Part shown: one piece after another, positions 1,767-52,648 of the stretch
Layout: each line of letters starts with the position of its first letter
Position numbering within the stretch: position 1 is the first letter of the stretch
Assembly: GCF_000725125.1 (NCBI RefSeq)
Contig: NZ_JFCB01000008.1
Location: 62,001-126,000, forward strand
Origin: Streptomyces toyocaensis
Lineage (GTDB): Bacteria; Actinomycetota; Actinomycetes; Streptomycetales; Streptomycetaceae
Length of the DNA: 64,000 bases
Direction of reading: 5' to 3'
Made by a program: the position numbers and the translations under genes
The notes under the pieces: generated by a model
Database searches by the model: none
What the model was told of the DNA's origin: nothing
What the model saw: the letters and a program-made list of their open reading frames with translations, nothing else

Positions 1767-3791
1767 TCAGCCGTCCGCGCCGGCCGGGACCTGCGGCGCC
1801 AGCAGTGCCGGCAGCCGGGTCGTGCGCGGCTCGGCGGCCACCTCGGCCACGGCGCGCGGCAGCGCCTGCTCCACCCCGTGCACCACGGACAGGTGCCGGC
1901 CGGCCCGGCCGAAGGCCGTGTACACCCAGGGCCGGCTCAGTGCCTGGGCGGCGTCACCGGGCAGCACGACGACGACCGCGGGCCACCGGCAGCCCACCGC
2001 CTGGTGCGCGGTCAGCGCCCATCCGTGCCGCACGGAGCGCTCCACCCGCTCCGGCGGTACGACGATCTCCCCGCCCCCGCACGCCAGGTGCAGCCCGTCG
2101 CCGTCGGCCCCCACGACACGACCCGGCAGCGTGCGTCCCGGAGCGGGGGAGTAGGCGACCCGGTCACCCGGGTCGAACCCGCCGAAGCGCCCCGGTCCCG
2201 GATTGAGCCGTTCCTTGAGCGCCGCGTTCAGCACGCGCGTACCGGCGGCACCGCCGTGCCCGGGGGTGATCACCTGGGTCTCCTCCACCGGCACCCCGAT
2301 CGCGCGCGGTACCGAGTCCGCCACCAGCTGCACGGTCCGGTGCACGGCCTCTCCCGCGTCCCGCACCGGCACGATCACGACCTCCTTGCCGGGCGCCGCC
2401 ACCTGGTTCAGCTCGCCGACGCCGATCCCGGAGACCAGCTCACCGAGCGGCCCGGGGTCCGGCCGCCGGGAGGCGATCTGCGGACAGATCCGGGCGGCCA
2501 GCAGGTCCGCGAACACCCGCCCGGGCCCCACCGACCACAGCACCCCGGGATCACCGGCCAGCACCAGCCGCGCCCCGTCCGCCAGCGACTCCGTCACCAG
2601 CGCGGCGGTCTCGACGTCCAGCTGCGGAGCGTCCAGCACGACCAGCAGGTCGACGTCCAGCGCACCGTCGGCGTCACGTCCCGGCCCCTCGGCACCGGAC
2701 AGCAGACCGGTGACGGTGGCGACACCCGGACCCTCGACCAGCGCCGCGAACCCGGCACGCCGGAGCGGACTGTGCGTGGCGGCCCAGACACGCAGCCCCA
2801 GGCCGTGCGCGGCGTTCAGCAGCGCCGCGGGGTCGGCCAGCGAGGCCTCCCCGCCGGTGTGCAGCACCAGTCCGTGCCCGGCGACCGCGCGGATCAGCTC
2901 ACCGGCGGAACCCCCCGCCGTGGCGGCCGCGCGCTCCCACTCCTCACCCGTACCGTCCTGCTTGGGCACGGAGTCGATCAGCCGGGCCAGTCCGTCGGCG
3001 AGGCTCTCCTCGGCCATCGCGAAGCGCTCCAGCCCCACCTGCACCCGGACGGGCTGGTCCTCGTCCTCCTCGAGGGCGTCCTGGAAGACGAGTACGTCAC
3101 CCTCCGCGATGGCGTTCTGCACGGCCTCGTCGGGATCCGGCACCCCCTGCCGCCCCAGCGCGTCGGTCAGCCCGGCCGTCCCGAGAACGGTGTGTCCGGC
3201 CTGCGCCGCCTGCTCGAGCAGCCACACGGTGATCGCGCGCCCCCGCCGCTCGTCGCCCGGCCCGGCCTCGGCACCGAGCAGCGCCCGGGCGAACCCGTCG
3301 GCCTGCTCGGGCCACACCCCGGCGATCCGCAGCAACTGCCAGGGATCGGCGCGCAGCACCTCCGCCGCCCCCTCGCCCAGCACGCCGGCGGCCTGCACGG
3401 CGAGCCCTTCCGGAGCGCCCCCCCGGACCAGCACCCCCCGCACATCCTCGACGGCGCCGGCGGCAGGAACGCCCGGAGGCACGGCCGGGGCCCGCCGCAC
3501 GGGCTCGGGAGCGGCCCGCCGCGGCGCGGGCCGGGCCTCCTCGAACACGGCGGCGGCCGGCTTCTCGCCGCTCTCCACGGCCCGCACGGCGGCCAGCAGA
3601 TCGGCGGCCGTGCCGCTCAGCTTGGCACCGGCCTCGATCGGCCCCTGCCGCTCCGCCCTCCGCCTCTCGATACGCTCCCGCTCCAGGCGCTGCGCGGCCA
3701 GTTCGGCCTCCGCCTCGGACACCTGCGCGCCCTCGGCGGGCGTGCCGTCCGCGCGCTCCGGCTCGGCGTCCTCCGGCGTCTCGGTGCTCAC
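1767..3791 (-). CDS. RecD2-like helicase homologue with degenerate ATPase motifs
   Basis: 674 aa. A charged N-terminal helix (about 25-50) is followed by a region like the helix-hairpin-helix repeats of RecD2, then a two-lobed helicase fold. The RecD landmarks can be aligned: ARLVLAGDPG-LWSVGPGRVFADLL near 410 (motif III) and YTAFGRAGRH near 620 (motif VI). The Walker A position near 308 reads TGGEASLAD, where the family has TGGPGTGKT. The Walker B position near 380 reads VVLDAPQ instead of VVDEAS. The motif V position near 595 reads AHQAVG instead of HKSQG. No GKT/GKS occurs anywhere. The GTG start overlaps the stop codon of the upstream aldo/keto reductase (GTGA), so translation is coupled. 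It is probably a non-hydrolysing nucleic-acid-binding or partner protein. Confidence 0.8.
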   Translation of the reverse strand: MSTETPEDAEPERADGTPAEGAQVSEAEAELAAQRLERERIERRRAERQGPIEAGAKLSGTAADLLAAVRAVESGEKPAAAVFEEARPAPRRAAPEPVRRAPAVPPGVPAAGAVEDVRGVLVRGGAPEGLAVQAAGVLGEGAAEVLRADPWQLLRIAGVWPEQADGFARALLGAEAGPGDERRGRAITVWLLEQAAQAGHTVLGTAGLTDALGRQGVPDPDEAVQNAIAEGDVLVFQDALEEDEDQPVRVQVGLERFAMAEESLADGLARLIDSVPKQDGTGEEWERAAATAGGSAGELIRAVAGHGLVLHTGGEASLADPAALLNAAHGLGLRVWAATHSPLRRAGFAALVEGPGVATVTGLLSGAEGPGRDADGALDVDLLVVLDAPQLDVETAALVTESLADGARLVLAGDPGVLWSVGPGRVFADLLAARICPQIASRRPDPGPLGELVSGIGVGELNQVAAPGKEVVIVPVRDAGEAVHRTVQLVADSVPRAIGVPVEETQVITPGHGGAAGTRVLNAALKERLNPGPGRFGGFDPGDRVAYSPAPGRTLPGRVVGADGDGLHLACGGGEIVVPPERVERSVRHGWALTAHQAVGCRWPAVVVVLPGDAAQALSRPWVYTAFGRAGRHLSVVHGVEQALPRAVAEVAAEPRTTRLPALLAPQVPAGADG

Positions 3792-4774
3792 AGCGTGCTC
3801 CAGTCGTGATCGGGATAGCGGTGCACGGGCGCCGACACATCGTCCAGCGCCCGGCAGATCTCGTCAGGAAGACTAAGGGCCTCCACTGACAACGCCGCCG
3901 TGAGCTGCTGCGCGTTGCGCGCGCCGACGATGGGGGCGGCGACACCGGGCCGGTCCCGCACCCACGCGAGCGCCACCTGCAGGGCGGTCACGGCGAGCCC
4001 GTCCGCCGCCGTCGTCACGGCGTCCACGATCCGGCTCGCCGTGTCGTCGAGGTACGGCGCGACGAACGGGGCGAGGTGCTCCGAGGCGCCCCGGGAGCCC
4101 GGCGGGGTGGAGTCATTGCGGTACTTGCCGCTCAGCACACCCCGGCCGAGCGGCGAGGACGGCAGGAGCCCGATCCCCAGATCCAGTGCCGCGGGCAGCA
4201 CCTCGCGCTCCACGCCGCGCTGCAGCAGCGAGTACTCCATCTGCGTACTCGCCAGCCGGGTCCGCGTCCCCGGCACCGCGAGCTGCCAGGTCGCCGCCTT
4301 GGCCAGCTGCCAGCCGCAGAAGTTGGAGACACCGGCATAGCGCACCCGCCCGCTGCCGACGGCGATGTCGAGCGCCTGGAGCGTCTCCTCCAACGGGGTG
4401 GCGGGGTCGTAGGCGTGCACGTGCCACACGTCGACGTGATCGGTGCCGAGCCGGGCCAGCGAGGCGTCAAGCGCCGTGAGCAGATGACCCCGCGAGCCGT
4501 CGAACCTGCGGTCCGGGTCGGGCACGCTGCCGGCCTTCGTCGAGATGACCAGATCCTCTCGGGGCACGAGCCCGTCCATCAGCCGTCCGAGCAGATACTC
4601 GGCCTCTCCGTCGCCGTACACGTCGGCGGTGTCGACGAGGGTCCCGCCGGCTTCCCAGAACGTCTTCAGGAGGTCCGCCGCGTCGTGCTCGTCGGTGTCC
4701 CGACCCCAGGTCAGCGTCCCGAGCCCGATCCGGGACACACGCAGGCCGGTACGGCCGAGATGCCTCTGCTCCAT
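3788..4774 (-). CDS. Aldo/keto reductase
   Basis: 328 aa, a normal length for the family. It begins at ATG 4774 (MEQRHLGRTGLRVS), the classical AKR amino terminus. The NADPH-dependent catalytic tetrad is visible: Asp and Tyr in DTADVYG, Lys in ISTKAG, His in DVWHVHAYD. It reduces an unknown carbonyl substrate in the cytosol. It is the first gene of a two-gene unit with the RecD-like protein, which it overlaps by 4 nt. Longer in-frame starts up to 5200 would read through the intergenic repeat element and are rejected. Confidence 0.9.
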   Translation of the reverse strand: MEQRHLGRTGLRVSRIGLGTLTWGRDTDEHDAADLLKTFWEAGGTLVDTADVYGDGEAEYLLGRLMDGLVPREDLVISTKAGSVPDPDRRFDGSRGHLLTALDASLARLGTDHVDVWHVHAYDPATPLEETLQALDIAVGSGRVRYAGVSNFCGWQLAKAATWQLAVPGTRTRLASTQMEYSLLQRGVEREVLPAALDLGIGLLPSSPLGRGVLSGKYRNDSTPPGSRGASEHLAPFVAPYLDDTASRIVDAVTTAADGLAVTALQVALAWVRDRPGVAAPIVGARNAQQLTAALSVEALSLPDEICRALDDVSAPVHRYPDHDWSTL

Positions 4775-28482: not shown

Positions 28483-28505
28483 ACCTTACGGCCCGCCACC
28501 GACAG
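28483..28505 (-). promoter_or_regulatory. PafBC-type (RecA-NDp) promoter of the RecB-type nuclease
   Basis: On the minus strand: CTGTCGGTG, then exactly 8 nt, then TAAGGT. The consensus for the RecA/LexA-independent damage promoter of mycobacteria is TTGTCRGTG-N8-TANNNT; only the first base differs. The -10 box ends 8 nt before the ATG. Confidence 0.75.
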
Positions 28506-44694: not shown

Positions 44695-44722
44695 GGGCCC
44701 ATGCCTGTCCGGGCATGGGCCC
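44695..44722 (+). terminator. Terminator after the FKBP genes
   Basis: GGGCCCATGCC / GGCATGGGCCC arms (11 bp) with a 6-nt loop, followed by CTCGGCTTTT. It separates this unit from pafBC. Confidence 0.82.
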
Positions 44723-44795
44723 TCGGCTTTTACCGCGCCACCCCGGGGCGGTACGGTCATCGCTCGTAAGCACCATAGGGAGGCGAAGCGCGTCG

Positions 44796-45749
44796 ATGGC
44801 CATTGCCAAGGCCGAGCGGCTGATGAATCTGGCGCTGTGTCTGCTCGGGACCCGGCGGCCGCTCAGCAAGCGCGAGCTGCGCGAGTCCATCGAGGCCTAT
44901 CTGGAAGCCGGGTCCGACGACTCCTTCAACCGCATGTTCGAGCGCGACAAGGACGATCTGCGCGAACTCGGACTGGTGATCGAAACCGTCGAGAACCTCG
45001 ACGGCGACACCGGCTACCTCGCCCGCCGCGACAGCAACCGGCTGCCGCCCATCACCCTCGACGCCGAGGAGGCCGCCGCCCTCGGGCTCGCCGCCAAGGT
45101 GTGGCAGCAGGCCCGGCTGGCCGGAGCGGCCAGCGGTGCCCTGCAGAAGCTGCGCGCGGCGGGTCTCCCGGAGGACGTCGACCCGTACGGCGCCCATGGT
45201 GCGCTCGAACCGCGCATCCCCGTGCACGAGGCGGCGTTCGAGCCGCTGATGCTGGCCTGTCGCGACCGCCGGCCGGTCGTCTTCGACTACCGCAAGGCGA
45301 ACGCTGCCCAGCCCGAGTCCCGGCACGTCGAACCGTGGGCGCTGGAGTGCTGGCGCGGCCACTGGTACCTGGCCGGCTGGGACCGTGACCGGGGTGCCGA
45401 GCGGGTCTTCCGGCTCTCCCGGATCACCGGCAAGGTGCGTTCGCGCGGCGGCCGGTTCACCGTCCCGGTGCCGGACGTCGTCACGGTGCGGGAGACCGTG
45501 GCGAGCTGGGCCGGGGAGACCGCCGACCGCTCGGCGCGGATCCGGCTGCGCTCCGACGCCGGATACCCGCTCCGGGCGAAGGCCACCGCGGTACGGGAAC
45601 TCGGGGACGGCTGGGACGAGTTGGAGATTCCGTACGGACACGGCCTGGATGCCTGGCTGGTGGAGTTCGGACCCGACGTGGTGGTCCTGGAGCCCGCCGA
45701 GCTGCGGGCCGACGTGGTGGACCGGCTGCGTGCCGTGGCCAAGGGCTGA
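44796..45749 (+). CDS. pafB: PafB, WYL-domain transcriptional activator
   Basis: 317 aa from ATG 44796 (AGGGAGG upstream). A winged HTH (about 5-70: ERLMNLALCLLGTRRPLSKRELRESI) is followed by a WYL domain (about 130-230, HWYLAGWDRDRG) and a C-terminal WCX extension. PafB and PafC act together to activate the RecA/LexA-independent DNA-damage regulon, adapting sigma factor to TTGTCRGTG-N8-TANNNT promoters (shown in mycobacteria). pafC follows after 18 nt. Confidence 0.95.
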   Translation: MAIAKAERLMNLALCLLGTRRPLSKRELRESIEAYLEAGSDDSFNRMFERDKDDLRELGLVIETVENLDGDTGYLARRDSNRLPPITLDAEEAAALGLAAKVWQQARLAGAASGALQKLRAAGLPEDVDPYGAHGALEPRIPVHEAAFEPLMLACRDRRPVVFDYRKANAAQPESRHVEPWALECWRGHWYLAGWDRDRGAERVFRLSRITGKVRSRGGRFTVPVPDVVTVRETVASWAGETADRSARIRLRSDAGYPLRAKATAVRELGDGWDELEIPYGHGLDAWLVEFGPDVVVLEPAELRADVVDRLRAVAKG

Positions 45750-45767: not shown

Positions 45768-46763
45768 GTGGCAGGCAAACCGGTCAGGCCCGTCAACGCC
45801 ATCGACCAGACCCGGCGGATGCTCTCGCTGGTGACGTATCTGCGCGAGCGCCCCGGAGCCCGGATCGAGGACGTGGCGCGCGCCTTCGGCATCACCGAGG
45901 ACGAGCTGGTCTCCGACCTCGATGTGCTGCCCATGTGCGGCACCAGCTTCCGCGGCGGTGACCTGCTGGACATCGACACCGACGGTGAGCGCATCTGGTG
46001 GCACAACCCGGCGGCCCTCGGCGCGGAGGCCGCCGAGCCGCTGCGGCTGGCCGCCGACGAGGCCACCGCCCTGCTGGTCGCCGCCCGTGCCGTGGCCACC
46101 CTGCCCGGACTGCGTGAGAGCGACCGGCAGGCGCTGCTGCGCGCCACCGCCAAGGTCGAGACCGCCGCAGGTGAGGCCGCGGGCGCCAGCGCCCGGCTGT
46201 CGGTGACCTTCGAGTCCGAGGGCGGGGTCTTCGCGGACGTCGACCGGGCCATCGCCGAGCGCCGCAGGCTGTGGATCCGCTACTACTCGCCCGCGCGCGA
46301 CGAGGTCACCGAGCGCGAGATCGACCCCATCCGTCTGGTCAGCGTCGGCCACACCTACGTAGAGGCCTGGTGCCGCCGCTCCGAGGCCCGCCGCACCTTC
46401 CGGCTGGACCGGGTCGCCGAGATCAAGATTCTGGACGAGCCGTCCGCGCCGCCCGAGGTGGAGCTGCGGGACCTGTCGGAGGCACTGGTGCAGCCCGCCG
46501 CCGAGGACCCGGAAGTGGTGGTCGAGGTCGCGCCGGGCGGGCGCTGGGTGGCCGAGTACTACCCGCACGACAGTGCGGATGAGCTTCCCGACGGCGGGCT
46601 GCGTATCACCCTGCGCACGCCCGACCCCGCCTCACTCAGACGGCTGGCGCTGCGGCTCGGCCGTGACGGCCGCATCGTCGAGCCGTCCGAGCTGTCCGAG
46701 AGCGCCCGGCAGGCGGCGCGCGAGGCGCTGGCGGCGTACCACGGGGCCGAGGCGGCCGGATGA
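45768..46763 (+). CDS. pafC: PafC, WYL-domain transcriptional activator
   Basis: 331 aa from GTG 45768. HTH at about 15-75 (RRMLSLVTYLRERPGARIEDVARAFGI), WYL-type domain at about 150-220 (LWIRYYSPARDEVTEREIDPIRLV, HTYVEAWCRRSEARRTFRLDRV), and WCX domain to the end. The WYL tryptophan-tyrosine-leucine stretch is altered to TYVEAW, as usual for PafC. It forms a functional pair with PafB, and response elements are visible elsewhere in this window. Confidence 0.95.
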   Translation: MAGKPVRPVNAIDQTRRMLSLVTYLRERPGARIEDVARAFGITEDELVSDLDVLPMCGTSFRGGDLLDIDTDGERIWWHNPAALGAEAAEPLRLAADEATALLVAARAVATLPGLRESDRQALLRATAKVETAAGEAAGASARLSVTFESEGGVFADVDRAIAERRRLWIRYYSPARDEVTEREIDPIRLVSVGHTYVEAWCRRSEARRTFRLDRVAEIKILDEPSAPPEVELRDLSEALVQPAAEDPEVVVEVAPGGRWVAEYYPHDSADELPDGGLRITLRTPDPASLRRLALRLGRDGRIVEPSELSESARQAAREALAAYHGAEAAG

Positions 46764-47583: not shown

Positions 47584-47865
47584 ATGGGACGGCTCGGACC
47601 TACCGAGATCATTCTGATCCTCGTCGTCATCATCCTGCTGTTCGGTGCGAAGAAGCTCCCGGACATGGCGCGGTCGCTCGGCAAGTCCGCGCGCATCCTC
47701 AAGAGCGAGGCGAAGGCGATGAAGGACGACAACAAGTCCTCCGCCCCTGCCGACCCGCCGGCCCCCGGCGAGCAGCCCCCGGCGCAGCGCACCATCCAGG
47801 CGGCCCCAGGCGACGTGACCAGCTCCCGCCCGGTCACGGAGCCGACGGACACGACCAAGCGCTGA
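47584..47865 (+). CDS. tatA: TatA, twin-arginine translocase subunit
   Basis: 93 aa. N-terminal membrane helix (about 6-20), [23 protein letters not shown] hinge and amphipathic helix (about 21-45), then a disordered Pro-rich tail. TatA forms the protein-conducting assembly for folded exported proteins. It is 47 nt upstream of tatC, in one transcript, with TatB expected elsewhere in the genome. Confidence 0.96.
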
Positions 47866-47912: not shown

Positions 47913-48827
47913 TTGCTCAAGTCTGCCCGCAAGCAGGAGAGGGATCCCGAGGGGCGGATGCCCCTCGTGGAACACCTGCGTGAGCTGCGCAACCGGCTCG
48001 CCAAGGCCGTCGTCGCGATCGTCGTGGTGATGATCGTTGCCGCGTTCTACAGCGAGCAGCTCATGCAGTTCCTCGCGGAGCCGGTGCCCAAATGCGAGGA
48101 CCTGGCGAACAGTGACGGCGGCAACTGCGCCATCGTCTCCTTCAACACACTGACGTCGCCGTTCACCACGACGATCAAGGTGAGCCTCATGGCGGGCCTG
48201 ATCGTCTCCAGCCCTGTGTGGCTCTACCAGCTCTGGGCCTTCGTCGCCCCCGGGCTGCACAAGCACGAGAAGAAGTACACGTACTGCTTCGTCTCGGCCG
48301 CCGTTCCGCTGTTCGTCGGCGGCGCCTACCTGTCGTACGTCATCCTCCCCGTCAGCATCAAGGTGCTGCTCAGCCTGACGCCCGGGGGATCGGCCAACAT
48401 CCTCTCGCTCGACGAGGTCCTCGACTTCACCATCCGCATGGTGCTGGTCTTCGGCCTGGCCTTCGAGCTGCCCCTGCTGCTCATCATGCTGAACCTGGTC
48501 GGCATCGTCTCCGGCCGCCGCATGGCCGGCTGGTGGCGCGGTGTCGTCATGGGCGTCTTCGTCTTCGGTGCCGTCGCGACGCCCACGACCGACCCGGTGG
48601 GAATGATCGCGCTGTCCGGGCCCATCGTCGTCCTCTACTTCGTCGCCGTGGCGTTCTCGCTGCTCAACGACAAACGGCGCGCCCGCAGGGAAGCCGCGGG
48701 GCCCGCCGACGACGAGGCCTCCGAACTGGACCTCACACCGGAGTCGATCGAACCGGTGGAGCCGGTGGCCGCCCTGCCCGAGCAGGCGGCCAAGGACCGG
48801 GTCAACGGTTATGACGACGTGACCTGA
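47913..48827 (+). CDS. tatC: TatC, twin-arginine translocase receptor
   Basis: 304 aa from TTG 47913; the nearby GTG at 47909 is out of frame. Six membrane helices; the signal-peptide-binding N-terminus MPLVEHLRELRNRL (about 16-29) and conserved Glu in LAFELPLLLIMLNLVGIV (about 186-204) are intact. TatC recognises RR signal peptides and recruits TatA. The C-terminal 60 residues are a disordered acidic extension common in Streptomyces. Confidence 0.96.
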   Translation: MLKSARKQERDPEGRMPLVEHLRELRNRLAKAVVAIVVVMIVAAFYSEQLMQFLAEPVPKCEDLANSDGGNCAIVSFNTLTSPFTTTIKVSLMAGLIVSSPVWLYQLWAFVAPGLHKHEKKYTYCFVSAAVPLFVGGAYLSYVILPVSIKVLLSLTPGGSANILSLDEVLDFTIRMVLVFGLAFELPLLLIMLNLVGIVSGRRMAGWWRGVVMGVFVFGAVATPTTDPVGMIALSGPIVVLYFVAVAFSLLNDKRRARREAAGPADDEASELDLTPESIEPVEPVAALPEQAAKDRVNGYDDVT

Positions 48828-48858: not shown

Positions 48859-49749
48859 GTGACCAGCGAGATCACCCTCTTCGTCAATCCCACCGCGGGC
48901 GGCGGCCGGGGCGCCCGCGCGGCGCTGCCGGCCGCTTCGGCCCTGCGGGACGCCGGCTTCTCGGTGCGGACCGTGCTCGGTGACGACCCCCGGGACGCCC
49001 TGGTCCGGGCACGCGCCGCGATCGAGAAGGGCACCGGCGCCCTGATCGCCGTCGGGGGCGACGGCATGGCGAACCTGGCCCTGCAGGCGGTCGTCGGCAC
49101 GGGCACCCCGTTCGGCCTGGTCGCCGCCGGAACCGGTAACGACTTCGCCCGCGCGCTCGGCATGCCCCTGCGGGACCCGGCCGCGGCCGGCCGGATGATC
49201 GCCGACGCCCTCAGGAGCGGCCGGGTCCGCGACATCGATCTGGGCCGGATCGGCGACCGCTGGTTCGGCGCCGTGCTCGCCTCCGGGTTCGACTCCCGCG
49301 TCAACGACCGCGGCAACCGGATGCGGATGCCGCTCGGACGTTTCAAGTACGACCTCGCGATGGTCGCGGAACTGGCCGCCTTCCGGCCCCTGCCGTACCG
49401 GATCACCCTCGACGGCGGGGAGGTCCGCGAGGTCGAGGCGACGCTGGTGGCCGTCGGGAACGGGCCGTCGTACGGCGGCGGTATGCGGATATGCCCCGGA
49501 GCGGATCTCACCGACGGGCTGTTCGACGTGACGGTCGTGGGCGAGTGCAGCCGGGCCACGCTGCTGCGGGTGTTCCCGCGGGTGTACCGGGGGACGCACG
49601 TCGGCCATCCCGCGGTCACCGTGCTGCGCGCGGCGAGCGTCGGGCTGGCCGCCGAGCACGTCACCGGGTACGCGGACGGGGAGCCCGTGGGGCCGCTGCC
49701 GCTGACCGCGCGATGCGTGCCGGGGGCCCTGCGGGTCGTGGGCCCCTGA
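48859..49749 (+). CDS. Diacylglycerol/lipid kinase
   Basis: 296 aa from GTG 48859. DAGK catalytic domain with LFVNPTAGGGRG (7-18), the ATP loop AVGGDGMANLALQAV (about 64-78) and GLVAAGTGNDFARALGMP (about 85-102). A second beta-sandwich domain has LVAVGNGPSYGGGMRICPGADLTDGLFDV near 195. It phosphorylates diacylglycerol or a related lipid at the membrane surface. A -10 box just upstream suggests independent transcription from tatC. Confidence 0.93.
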   Translation: MTSEITLFVNPTAGGGRGARAALPAASALRDAGFSVRTVLGDDPRDALVRARAAIEKGTGALIAVGGDGMANLALQAVVGTGTPFGLVAAGTGNDFARALGMPLRDPAAAGRMIADALRSGRVRDIDLGRIGDRWFGAVLASGFDSRVNDRGNRMRMPLGRFKYDLAMVAELAAFRPLPYRITLDGGEVREVEATLVAVGNGPSYGGGMRICPGADLTDGLFDVTVVGECSRATLLRVFPRVYRGTHVGHPAVTVLRAASVGLAAEHVTGYADGEPVGPLPLTARCVPGALRVVGP

Positions 49750-49801
49750 TCCGGACGGCCCCCGCCGCCCACCGGGACGGTTACGGATAATGATCGTCCT
49801 G

Positions 49802-49824
49802 TTGTCGGTGCGGCCCGGTACGCT
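49802..49824 (+). promoter_or_regulatory. PafBC-type (RecA-NDp) promoter of helY, perfect consensus
   Basis: TTGTCGGTG, then exactly 8 nt (CGGCCCGG), then TACGCT. This agrees at every specified base with TTGTCRGTG-N8-TANNNT. The -10 box ends 10 nt before the ATG at 49835, so the leader is very short or absent. Confidence 0.85.
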
Positions 49825-49834
49825 CGAAAGCACG

Positions 49835-52648
49835 ATGACAGAGGATCTCTCTCCGGCCGAGCGGTACGCGGCAGCACGCAGGCGCGCTGCCGAGCAGGCC
49901 ACCGCGCTCGCCTCCTTCCGCGAGATGTACGACTTCGGCCTCGACCCCTTCCAGATCGAGGCCTGCCAGGCGCTCGAGGCGGGGAAGGGTGTGCTGGTCG
50001 CGGCGCCCACCGGCTCCGGCAAGACGATCGTGGGCGAGTTCGCCGTCCACCTCGCCCTCCAGCAGGGCAAGAAGTGCTTCTACACGACACCCATCAAGGC
50101 CCTGTCGAACCAGAAGTACGCCGATCTGTGCCGTCGCTACGGCACCGGGAAGGTCGGCCTGCTCACCGGTGACAACAGTGTCAACTCCGACGCGCCGGTG
50201 GTCGTGATGACCACCGAGGTGCTGCGGAACATGCTGTATGCCGGGTCGCAGACCCTCCTCGGCCTCGGCTACGTGGTGATGGACGAGGTGCACTACCTCT
50301 CCGACCGTTTCCGCGGTGCCGTCTGGGAGGAAGTGATCATCCACCTCCCCGAGTCCGTGACCCTGGTGTCCCTGTCGGCGACGGTGTCGAACGCGGAGGA
50401 GTTCGGCGACTGGCTGGACACGGTCCGCGGCGACACCCAGGTGATCGTCTCCGAGCACCGGCCCGTGCCGCTGTTCCAGCACGTGCTCGCCGGCCGCCGG
50501 ATGTACGACCTGTTCGAGGAGGGGGAGGGCCAGAAGAAGGCCGTCAACCCTGATCTCATGCGCATGGCCCGTCTGGAGGCCAGCCGCCCGTCCTACGCGG
50601 ACCGCAGACGCGGACGGGGCGCCATGCGGGAGGCGGACCGGGAGCGGGAGCGCCGGCAGCGCTCGCGGGTGTGGACGCCGAGCCGGCCGGAGGTCATCGA
50701 GCGGCTCGACTCCGAGGGCCTGCTGCCCGCCATCACGTTCATCTTCAGCCGCGCCGCCTGCGAGGCCGCCGTCCAGCAGTGCCTGTACGCGGGGCTCCGG
50801 CTCAACGACGAGGAGGCGCGGGCCCGGGTCCGCGCGCTGGTCGAGGAGCGCACCGCCTCCCTCCCGTCCGAGGACCTGCACGTCCTCGGCTACTACGAGT
50901 GGCTGGAGGGCCTGGAGCGCGGCATCGCGGCCCATCACGCCGGCATGCTGCCGACGTTCAAGGAGGTCGTGGAGGAGCTGTTCGTCCGCGGGCTGGTGAA
51001 GGCCGTGTTCGCGACCGAGACCCTCGCACTCGGCATCAACATGCCCGCCCGGTCGGTGGTCCTGGAGAAGCTCGTCAAGTGGAACGGAGAGCAGCACGCC
51101 GACATCACCCCCGGCGAGTACACGCAGCTGACCGGCCGGGCCGGCCGTCGCGGCATCGACGTCGAGGGCCACGCGGTCGTGCTGTGGCAGCGCGGCATGA
51201 ACCCCGACCACCTGGCGGGGCTGGCCGGCACCCGCACGTACCCGCTGCGCTCCAGCTTCAGGCCGTCGTACAACATGGCGGTCAACCTGGTCGAACAGTT
51301 CGGCCGGCACCGCTCGCGGGAACTGCTCGAAACGTCCTTCGCGCAGTTCCAGGCGGACAAGTCGGTCGTGGGCATCTCGCGGCAGGTGCAGCGCAACGAG
51401 GAGGGTCTGGAAGGCTACAAGGCCTCCATGACCTGCCACCTCGGCGACTTCGAGGAGTACGCGCGGCTGCGCCGCGAGCTGAAGGACCGGGAGAACGAGC
51501 TGGCACGGCAGGGCGCGGTGCAGCGCCGTGCGGAGGCCGCCGTCGCACTGGAGAAGCTCAAGCCCGGTGACGTCATCCACGTCCCCACCGGCAAGTACGC
51601 GGGGCTGGCGCTGGTGCTGGACCCCGGCCTGCCCGCGGGCCGTTCCAACGGGCACCGCGGCGTGGAGTACCACGACGGTCCGCGCCCGCTGGTGCTGACC
51701 GCCGAGCGGCAGGTCAAGCGGCTGGCGTCGATCGACTTCCCGGTGCCGGTGGAGGCGCTGGAGCGGATGCGGATCCCGAAGTCCTTCAATCCGCGCTCCC
51801 CGCAGTCCCGTCGGGACCTCGCCTCGGCGCTGCGCACCAAGGCCGGGCACATCACGCCGGAGCGGCACCGCAAGAAGCGTGCCCAGGCGGCCGACGACCG
51901 GGAGATCGCGCGGCTGCGCAAGGTGCTGAGGGCGCACCCGTGCCACGGCTGCCAGGACCGCGAGGACCACGCCCGCTGGGCCGAGCGCTACCACCGGCTG
52001 CTGCGCGACACCTCGCAGCTCGAGCGCCGGATCGAGGGCCGGACGAACACCATCGCCCGCACCTTCGACCGGATCGTGGCGCTGCTGACCGAGATGGACT
52101 ATCTGCGCGGCGACGAGGTCACCGAGCACGGCAAGCGGCTGGCCCGGCTGTACGGCGAACTCGATCTGCTGGCGAGTGAATGCCTGCGCGAGGGCGTCTG
52201 GGAGGGGCTCGCCCCCGCCGAACTCGCCGCGTGCGTCTCGGCGCTGGTCTACGAGGCGCGGCTCTCCGACGACGCCATGGTCCCCAAGCTGCCCTCGGGC
52301 AGGGCCAAGGCGGCACTGGGCGAGATGGTCCGCATCTGGGGCCGGCTGGACGCCCTGGAGGAGGACTTCCGGATCAGCCAGACGGAGGGCGTGGGCCAGC
52401 GCGAGCCCGATCTCGGCTTCGCCTGGGCCGCCTACATGTGGGCCTCGGGCAAGGGCCTGGACGAGGTGCTGCGCGAGGCGGAGATGCCGGCCGGTGACTT
52501 CGTGCGCTGGTGCAAGCAGGTCATCGACGTGCTCGGCCAGATCTCCGCGGCGGCACCGGCCGTCGAGGGCTCGACCGTCGCCAGGAACGCCCGCAAGGCG
52601 GTCGACGGGCTGTTGCGCGGCGTGGTCGCCTACTCCTCCGTGGGCTGA
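49835..52648 (+). CDS. helY: HelY/Ski2-type DEAD/DEAH helicase
   Basis: 937 aa from ATG 49835. Superfamily 2 motifs: Q-type PFQIEACQALE, Walker A APTGSGKT near 57, TTPIKALSNQKY, DEVHYL near 149, SLSATVSN near 175, and motif VI QLTGRAGRRG near 432. A C-terminal arch and helical (DSHCT) region follows. It resembles RNA helicases of the Mtr4/Ski2 group and mycobacterial HelY. A damage-type promoter directly upstream suggests a role in nucleic-acid metabolism under DNA stress. A GTG/ATG further upstream is rejected because the promoter occupies it. Confidence 0.93.
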   Translation: MTEDLSPAERYAAARRRAAEQATALASFREMYDFGLDPFQIEACQALEAGKGVLVAAPTGSGKTIVGEFAVHLALQQGKKCFYTTPIKALSNQKYADLCRRYGTGKVGLLTGDNSVNSDAPVVVMTTEVLRNMLYAGSQTLLGLGYVVMDEVHYLSDRFRGAVWEEVIIHLPESVTLVSLSATVSNAEEFGDWLDTVRGDTQVIVSEHRPVPLFQHVLAGRRMYDLFEEGEGQKKAVNPDLMRMARLEASRPSYADRRRGRGAMREADRERERRQRSRVWTPSRPEVIERLDSEGLLPAITFIFSRAACEAAVQQCLYAGLRLNDEEARARVRALVEERTASLPSEDLHVLGYYEWLEGLERGIAAHHAGMLPTFKEVVEELFVRGLVKAVFATETLALGINMPARSVVLEKLVKWNGEQHADITPGEYTQLTGRAGRRGIDVEGHAVVLWQRGMNPDHLAGLAGTRTYPLRSSFRPSYNMAVNLVEQFGRHRSRELLETSFAQFQADKSVVGISRQVQRNEEGLEGYKASMTCHLGDFEEYARLRRELKDRENELARQGAVQRRAEAAVALEKLKPGDVIHVPTGKYAGLALVLDPGLPAGRSNGHRGVEYHDGPRPLVLTAERQVKRLASIDFPVPVEALERMRIPKSFNPRSPQSRRDLASALRTKAGHITPERHRKKRAQAADDREIARLRKVLRAHPCHGCQDREDHARWAERYHRLLRDTSQLERRIEGRTNTIARTFDRIVALLTEMDYLRGDEVTEHGKRLARLYGELDLLASECLREGVWEGLAPAELAACVSALVYEARLSDDAMVPKLPSGRAKAALGEMVRIWGRLDALEEDFRISQTEGVGQREPDLGFAWAAYMWASGKGLDEVLREAEMPAGDFVRWCKQVIDVLGQISAAAPAVEGSTVARNARKAVDGLLRGVVAYSSVG

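Follow-up and report, generated by a model that had tools for sequence, protein, structure and literature searches.

A predicted PafBC-type promoter with an unusual second candidate activator site in front of helY in Streptomyces toyocaensis

The window analyzed here, a stretch of 64,000 nucleotides of the Streptomyces toyocaensis contig NZ_JFCB01000008.1, carries the gene pair pafB-pafC and, further along the same strand, the gene helY with a promoter-like array directly in front of it (Table 1). The end of pafC and the box that is the main subject of this analysis are separated by approximately 3.0 kb, occupied by tatA, tatC, and a diacylglycerol-kinase-like gene. The HelY protein combines a DEAD/Helicase_C core with a Ski2/Mtr4-like stalk and a DSHCT domain, and both these domains and the pafBC-tat neighborhood are shared with the mycobacterial HelY (Rv2092c / MSMEG_3885), from which the locus differs in the promoter arrangement upstream. 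The initial annotation read helY as a helicase gene, and pointed to the presence of pafB-pafC some 3 kb upstream. The protein is indeed a helicase, but one that acts on RNA or RNA:DNA hybrids (Uson 2015, cited in PMC8931766), rather than a typical DNA-repair helicase. The position of pafB-pafC is also as described, but this nearness says little, because Mycobacterium shares the pafBC-tatAC-helY order although its helY lacks the box.

Table 1. Features of the pafBC-helY region, in coordinates of the window.
Feature	Coordinates	Strand	Evidence
pafB (WYL, WCX)	44715..45749	+	Domain matches; real start probably ATG 44796, by alignment with M. smegmatis PafB
pafC (HTH_PafC, WYL, WCX)	45768..46763	+	Domain matches
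tatA-like ORF	47584..47865	+	Read by eye
tatC	47913..48827	+	Domain match
Diacylglycerol-kinase-like (YegS/DAGK) gene	48859..49749	+	Domain match; gap to helY 85 bp
AT-rich block GATAAT, candidate WblC/WhiB7 box	49786..49791	+	GAAAWY with 1 mismatch; separated from the -10 by 3 bp, a hexamer, and 18 bp
PafBC -26 element (RecA-NDp box) TTGTCGGTG	49802..49810	+	TGTC core 99-100% per base in 67 distinct Streptomyces sequences
-10 element TACGCT (TANNNT), common to the PafBC promoter and the putative WblC promoter	49819..49824	+	T, A, and last T invariant (100%) in the 67 sequences
helY, Ski2/Mtr4-like DEAD/DSHCT RNA helicase, 937 aa	49835..52648	+	DEAD, Helicase_C, MTR4-like stalk, DSHCT

The array at 49802-49824 (+) reads TTGTCGGTG CGGCCCGG TACGCT, and the perfect match to TTGTCRGTG-N8-TANNNT claimed for it in the initial annotation holds for every specified base and for the 8-nt spacing. 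It fits the consensus of the PafBC-dependent (RecA-NDp) promoter, given either as the pattern above or in the M. tuberculosis form, TGTC(G/A)G-N10-TANNNT (PMC8151990). The -26 box, the 8-nt spacing, the TANNNT element, and the orientation toward a near downstream gene start are all features of the PafBC promoters of the mycobacteria, and of those of the Streptomyces recA and SCO6735 genes. The ATG of helY begins 10 nt past the end of the -10 element, and the start codon on which the initial annotation based this distance is the correct one. An in-frame ATG at 49790, which would turn the box into coding sequence, is not conserved, and the distance shifts by single bases between species. A scan of positions 49600-49900 found no sigma-70-type -35/-10 pair, which fits a PafBC promoter that needs no consensus -35, and no LexA box was seen by eye in the gap before helY. 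The sequence supports the prediction of a PafBC-type (RecA-NDp) promoter in front of helY.

A scan of the genome for the same motif, proposed as a check in the initial annotation, returned 22 exact matches to TTGTCRGTG-N8-TANNNT in 7.34 Mb, mainly ahead of repair genes, versus none for the reversed pattern, with approximately 0.13 matches expected from the base composition (assuming 72% GC). All 22 sites face an open reading frame with a likely start no more than about 110 nt away, and at nine of them the start codon lies 6-10 nt past the -10, which is a leaderless-type layout. The repair-type genes recognized downstream by Pfam/NCBIfam models are recA, ung, dnaX, ruvC, uvrB, ogt (divergent from uvrB), xseA, pcrA, an AlkZ-like gene, and a RecD2-like helicase gene, to which uvrA can be added, recognized by eye from its translation. 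The same models identified an ECF sigma factor, a YjbR protein, a SWIM zinc-finger protein, moaA, an ABC transporter ATPase, and a SUKH-4 protein, although some of the last of these may be chance or unrelated neighbors. Taken as a group, the 22 sites appear to form a regulon-like set. A relaxed pattern, with the first base free and C allowed at the first base of the -10, gave 85 matches versus four controls in the same genome, which suggests that the functional set exceeds 22.

Two further features of this genome concern the composition of the set. The PafBC box ahead of the ECF sigma factor gene lies 56 nt upstream of it. This sigma factor has an NTF2-like domain (SigX5/TIGR02960), and would give the damage response another regulatory layer. 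Many exact TTGTCRGTG boxes are also followed, at the -10 spacing, by CANNNT in place of TANNNT, several of them close to a start codon, and these are possibly weaker PafBC promoters.

This type of promoter is not new for Streptomyces, given that it was first described at the recA gene of S. rimosus (Ahel 2002, cited in PMC5087735), and that SCO6735, which is UV-inducible, has a RecA-NDp promoter (PMC5087735). The existence of a PafBC-driven, LexA-independent damage response in Streptomyces was left as a question in 2022 (PMC9380542), in part because the motif seemed to be absent: the initial motif search described in that paper suggested that the PafBC motif of M. smegmatis is not conserved in S. 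venezuelae, which counts against the reading proposed here. This remark fits none of the Streptomyces genomes sampled here, among which S. venezuelae itself was not singled out. The motif is found in all 61 of the 61 genomes, with 11-44 matches in each and a total of 1,497, versus six controls. Matches occur in 87 of 118 genomes of the wider class, mostly in far lower numbers than in Streptomyces, although the PafC HTH model was matched in 110 of the 118. The abundance of the motif in every sampled Streptomyces genome, before the expected repair genes, makes the question of a PafBC response testable, with a list of targets at hand.

At helY itself, the strict motif is found ahead of the start, at a fixed distance and with varying spacer bases, in 118 of 296 genomes. 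In a sample of 68 Streptomyces genomes picked without regard to the motif, 67 have TGTC at a distance of exactly 16 nt from the T of the downstream TANNNT, and at no other offset. The end of the -10 is 8-10 nt from the ATG. The exact 9-mer TTGTCRGTG is present in only some of the genus (22/68), and the invariant core is the TGTC that lies 16 nt ahead of TANNNT and usually continues with (A/G)G. Among the 67 distinct Streptomyces sequences, conservation by column is highest at TGTC and the -10, and also extends to parts of the spacer, namely the CGG before the -10. Non-consensus helY boxes such as CTGTCAGAGG, found in many Streptomyces, are putative promoters only, and weigh against the main reading.

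Beyond the genus, the pattern NTGTC-N12-TANNNT was found upstream of helY at 34 of 40 loci of other Streptomycetaceae genera versus two of 82 loci in the rest of the class, and was absent from the Mycobacterium/Mycolicibacterium loci examined. The named genomes with the box include Streptomyces acidipaludis, S. carminius, Actinacidiphila rubida, and Kitasatospora humi. Relatedness makes the sequences non-independent, and the argument rests on this contrast between clades and on the fixed offset, not on the raw counts. The contrast places the origin of the box in, or close to, the ancestor of the Streptomycetaceae and, as judged from these comparisons, the helY box is a family-level invention, not a mycobacterial arrangement. 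Inheritance of the regulation of helY from the mycobacterial arrangement is ruled out by the boxless helY of the Mycobacterium loci examined, unlike that of Streptomyces. The helY of M. smegmatis is upregulated, together with translesion genes, by the G-quadruplex ligand BRACO-19 (PMC8931766), and this rise does not act through the box, because the mycobacteria have none at helY.

Most helY genes from outside the Streptomycetaceae show a leaderless layout, in which a TANNNT element ends 6-7 nt ahead of the start codon and no TGTC box is present. The helY of Promicromonospora iranensis does have a box, as does that of one other genome outside the family, and boxes of this kind outside the family may be independent gains.

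A second conserved element of the helY promoter, missed in the initial annotation, is an AT-rich run that spans positions -32 to -28 relative to the T of the -10. This block is kept at helY in 53 of 58 Streptomyces and in 18 of the 20 loci tested from elsewhere in the family, and it is found at helY alone among the PafBC boxes of this genome, being present at none of the other 21. The GATC of the AATGATC block is unnecessary as a key part, given that one Kitasatospora-like locus retains the AT run alone.

We infer that the AT-rich block would be a site for WblC. The helY locus of S. coelicolor is SCO1631. The HelY/SCO1631 gene is a member of the WblC (WhiB7) regulon of S. coelicolor (PMC7157823, including Fig. 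2J), and under tetracycline the wild type exceeded the wblC mutant 5.1-fold in its RNA and 8.0-fold in the ribosome-associated protein (PMC7157823). The WblC motif given in the same paper consists of GAAAWY, 3 bp, a -35 element (TKGMNN), 16-19 bp, and TANNNT, and in this frame the helY promoter reads GATAAT-GAT-CGTCCT-18 bp-TACGCT, with a correct gap and a near-optimal spacer. The AT-rich candidate box, the 3 bp that follow it, the 18-bp spacer, and the TANNNT element fit the WblC/WhiB7 promoters of S. coelicolor, where helY is a listed target, but the locus differs from these in that the PafBC box sits within the -35/-10 spacer. The CGTCCT hexamer is a poor WblC -35, with two of the four specified bases wrong, which also counts against the main reading. 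A scan with the WblC pattern before hflX, a known WblC target, gave no match, and is hence insensitive.

The reading that we consider quite probable is that the Streptomycetaceae helY is transcribed from its own promoter, with a single -10 (TANNNT) and, upstream of it, two alternative sites for activators, one for PafBC, in response to DNA damage, and the other for WblC, in response to translation stress. The mycobacterial PafBC is activated by ssDNA and inserts between the promoter DNA and region 4 of the sigma factor, while PafB occupies the -26 motif (PMC11804915), and we infer that PafBC acts at helY in Streptomyces. Following DNA damage, the ssDNA-loaded PafBC would bind the TTGTCRGTG element at -26, and so adapt the holoenzyme of the housekeeping sigma factor HrdB to a promoter without a recognizable -35. 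Under translation stress, WblC/WhiB7, which works with HrdB at its target promoters (PMC7157823), would attach to the AT-rich block immediately ahead of the -35 position, and bring HrdB to the -10 that PafBC would use as well. With one -10 in common, the two activators would probably alternate. The leader would be a few nucleotides at most, the ATG being 10 nt past the -10, although this distance is slightly long for a strictly leaderless mRNA. The HelY protein would unwind RNA or RNA:DNA hybrids on the ribosomes, where it has been shown under tetracycline stress in S. coelicolor (PMC7157823), and perhaps, more speculatively, also at R-loops or sites of blocked transcription after DNA damage.

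The PafBC promoter proposed in the initial annotation is in this way upheld by the motif, the regulon-like set, the conservation, and the presence of PafBC, but it is incomplete, since the S. coelicolor helY was already known to be activated by WblC/WhiB7. It is likely that helY is a PafBC target, and its promoter is a predicted addition to a known class, unusual in its second candidate site for an activator. In the open papers searched, helY was not found as a PafBC target, nor was any report found of a combined PafBC/WblC promoter. We lean, if only slightly, toward a broader reading, in which PafBC and WblC compete or alternate at the helY -10, the RNA helicase serves both DNA damage and ribosome stress as a common effector, and an uncharacterized PafBC regulon is present throughout Streptomyces. 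If so, the PafBC response would gain an RNA helicase through helY and be tied to the WblC antibiotic-stress response, at a promoter whose two sigma-dependent activators have either to share the site or to exclude each other.

The strongest alternative is a helY promoter dependent only on WblC/HrdB, with the TGTC core being kept for other reasons, for example because HrdB or WblC makes contacts with the spacer. The demonstrated control of helY by WblC in S. coelicolor (PMC7157823) and the lack of any report of the induction of helY by damage are in line with this explanation, but it seems unlikely, given that the WblC motif as published in PMC7157823 has no conserved element between the -35 and the -10, and that the same TTGTCRGTG-N8-TANNNT precedes recA, uvrA, uvrB, and other repair genes that have no AT block.

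The use of the box by a different WYL-type regulator, instead of PafBC, is more doubtful still. The PafC HTH model has six matches in the genome, several of them from paralogues, and the mycobacterial WYL paralogue SiwR responds to genotoxic stress (PMC10693628). The motif is nevertheless assigned to PafBC in the mycobacteria, the genes behind it are the classic PafBC set, and a true pafB-pafC pair is present, with conserved ligand residues. In the alignment to the M. smegmatis PafB, the S. toyocaensis protein retains R181, Y196, R204, and R208 (M. smegmatis numbering), which are needed for ssDNA binding (PMC11804915), and its HTH segment is very similar.

It is also highly improbable that helY is transcribed mainly by read-through from pafBC-tatAC or the upstream diacylglycerol-kinase-like gene, with only a minor role for the box: the genes are all co-oriented, with an 85 bp gap in which no terminator-like site was found upstream of helY, and the Mycobacterium helY directly follows tatC, but a promoter-like array, conserved throughout the family, keeps a fixed distance to the ATG. 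A chance match can be dismissed, as it is already refuted by the conservation, with the fixed spacing in 67 of 68 genomes, by the 22 versus zero matches in the genome, and by dinucleotide shuffles of the window, in which zero matches to the motif are expected.

The window contains two other sites of this type. A second exact PafBC box, at 3870-3892 (-), lies within the 3' end of an aldo/keto-reductase-like open reading frame, 78 nt ahead of the open reading frame of the RecD2-like helicase (1767-3791, -), and its 23-mer is identical, or almost so, in other Streptomyces genomes. A near-consensus box, CTGTCGGTGGCGGGCCGTAAGGT, is located at 28483-28505 (-), 8 nt ahead of the ATG of an open reading frame that, judged by eye, resembles a RecB-family nuclease.
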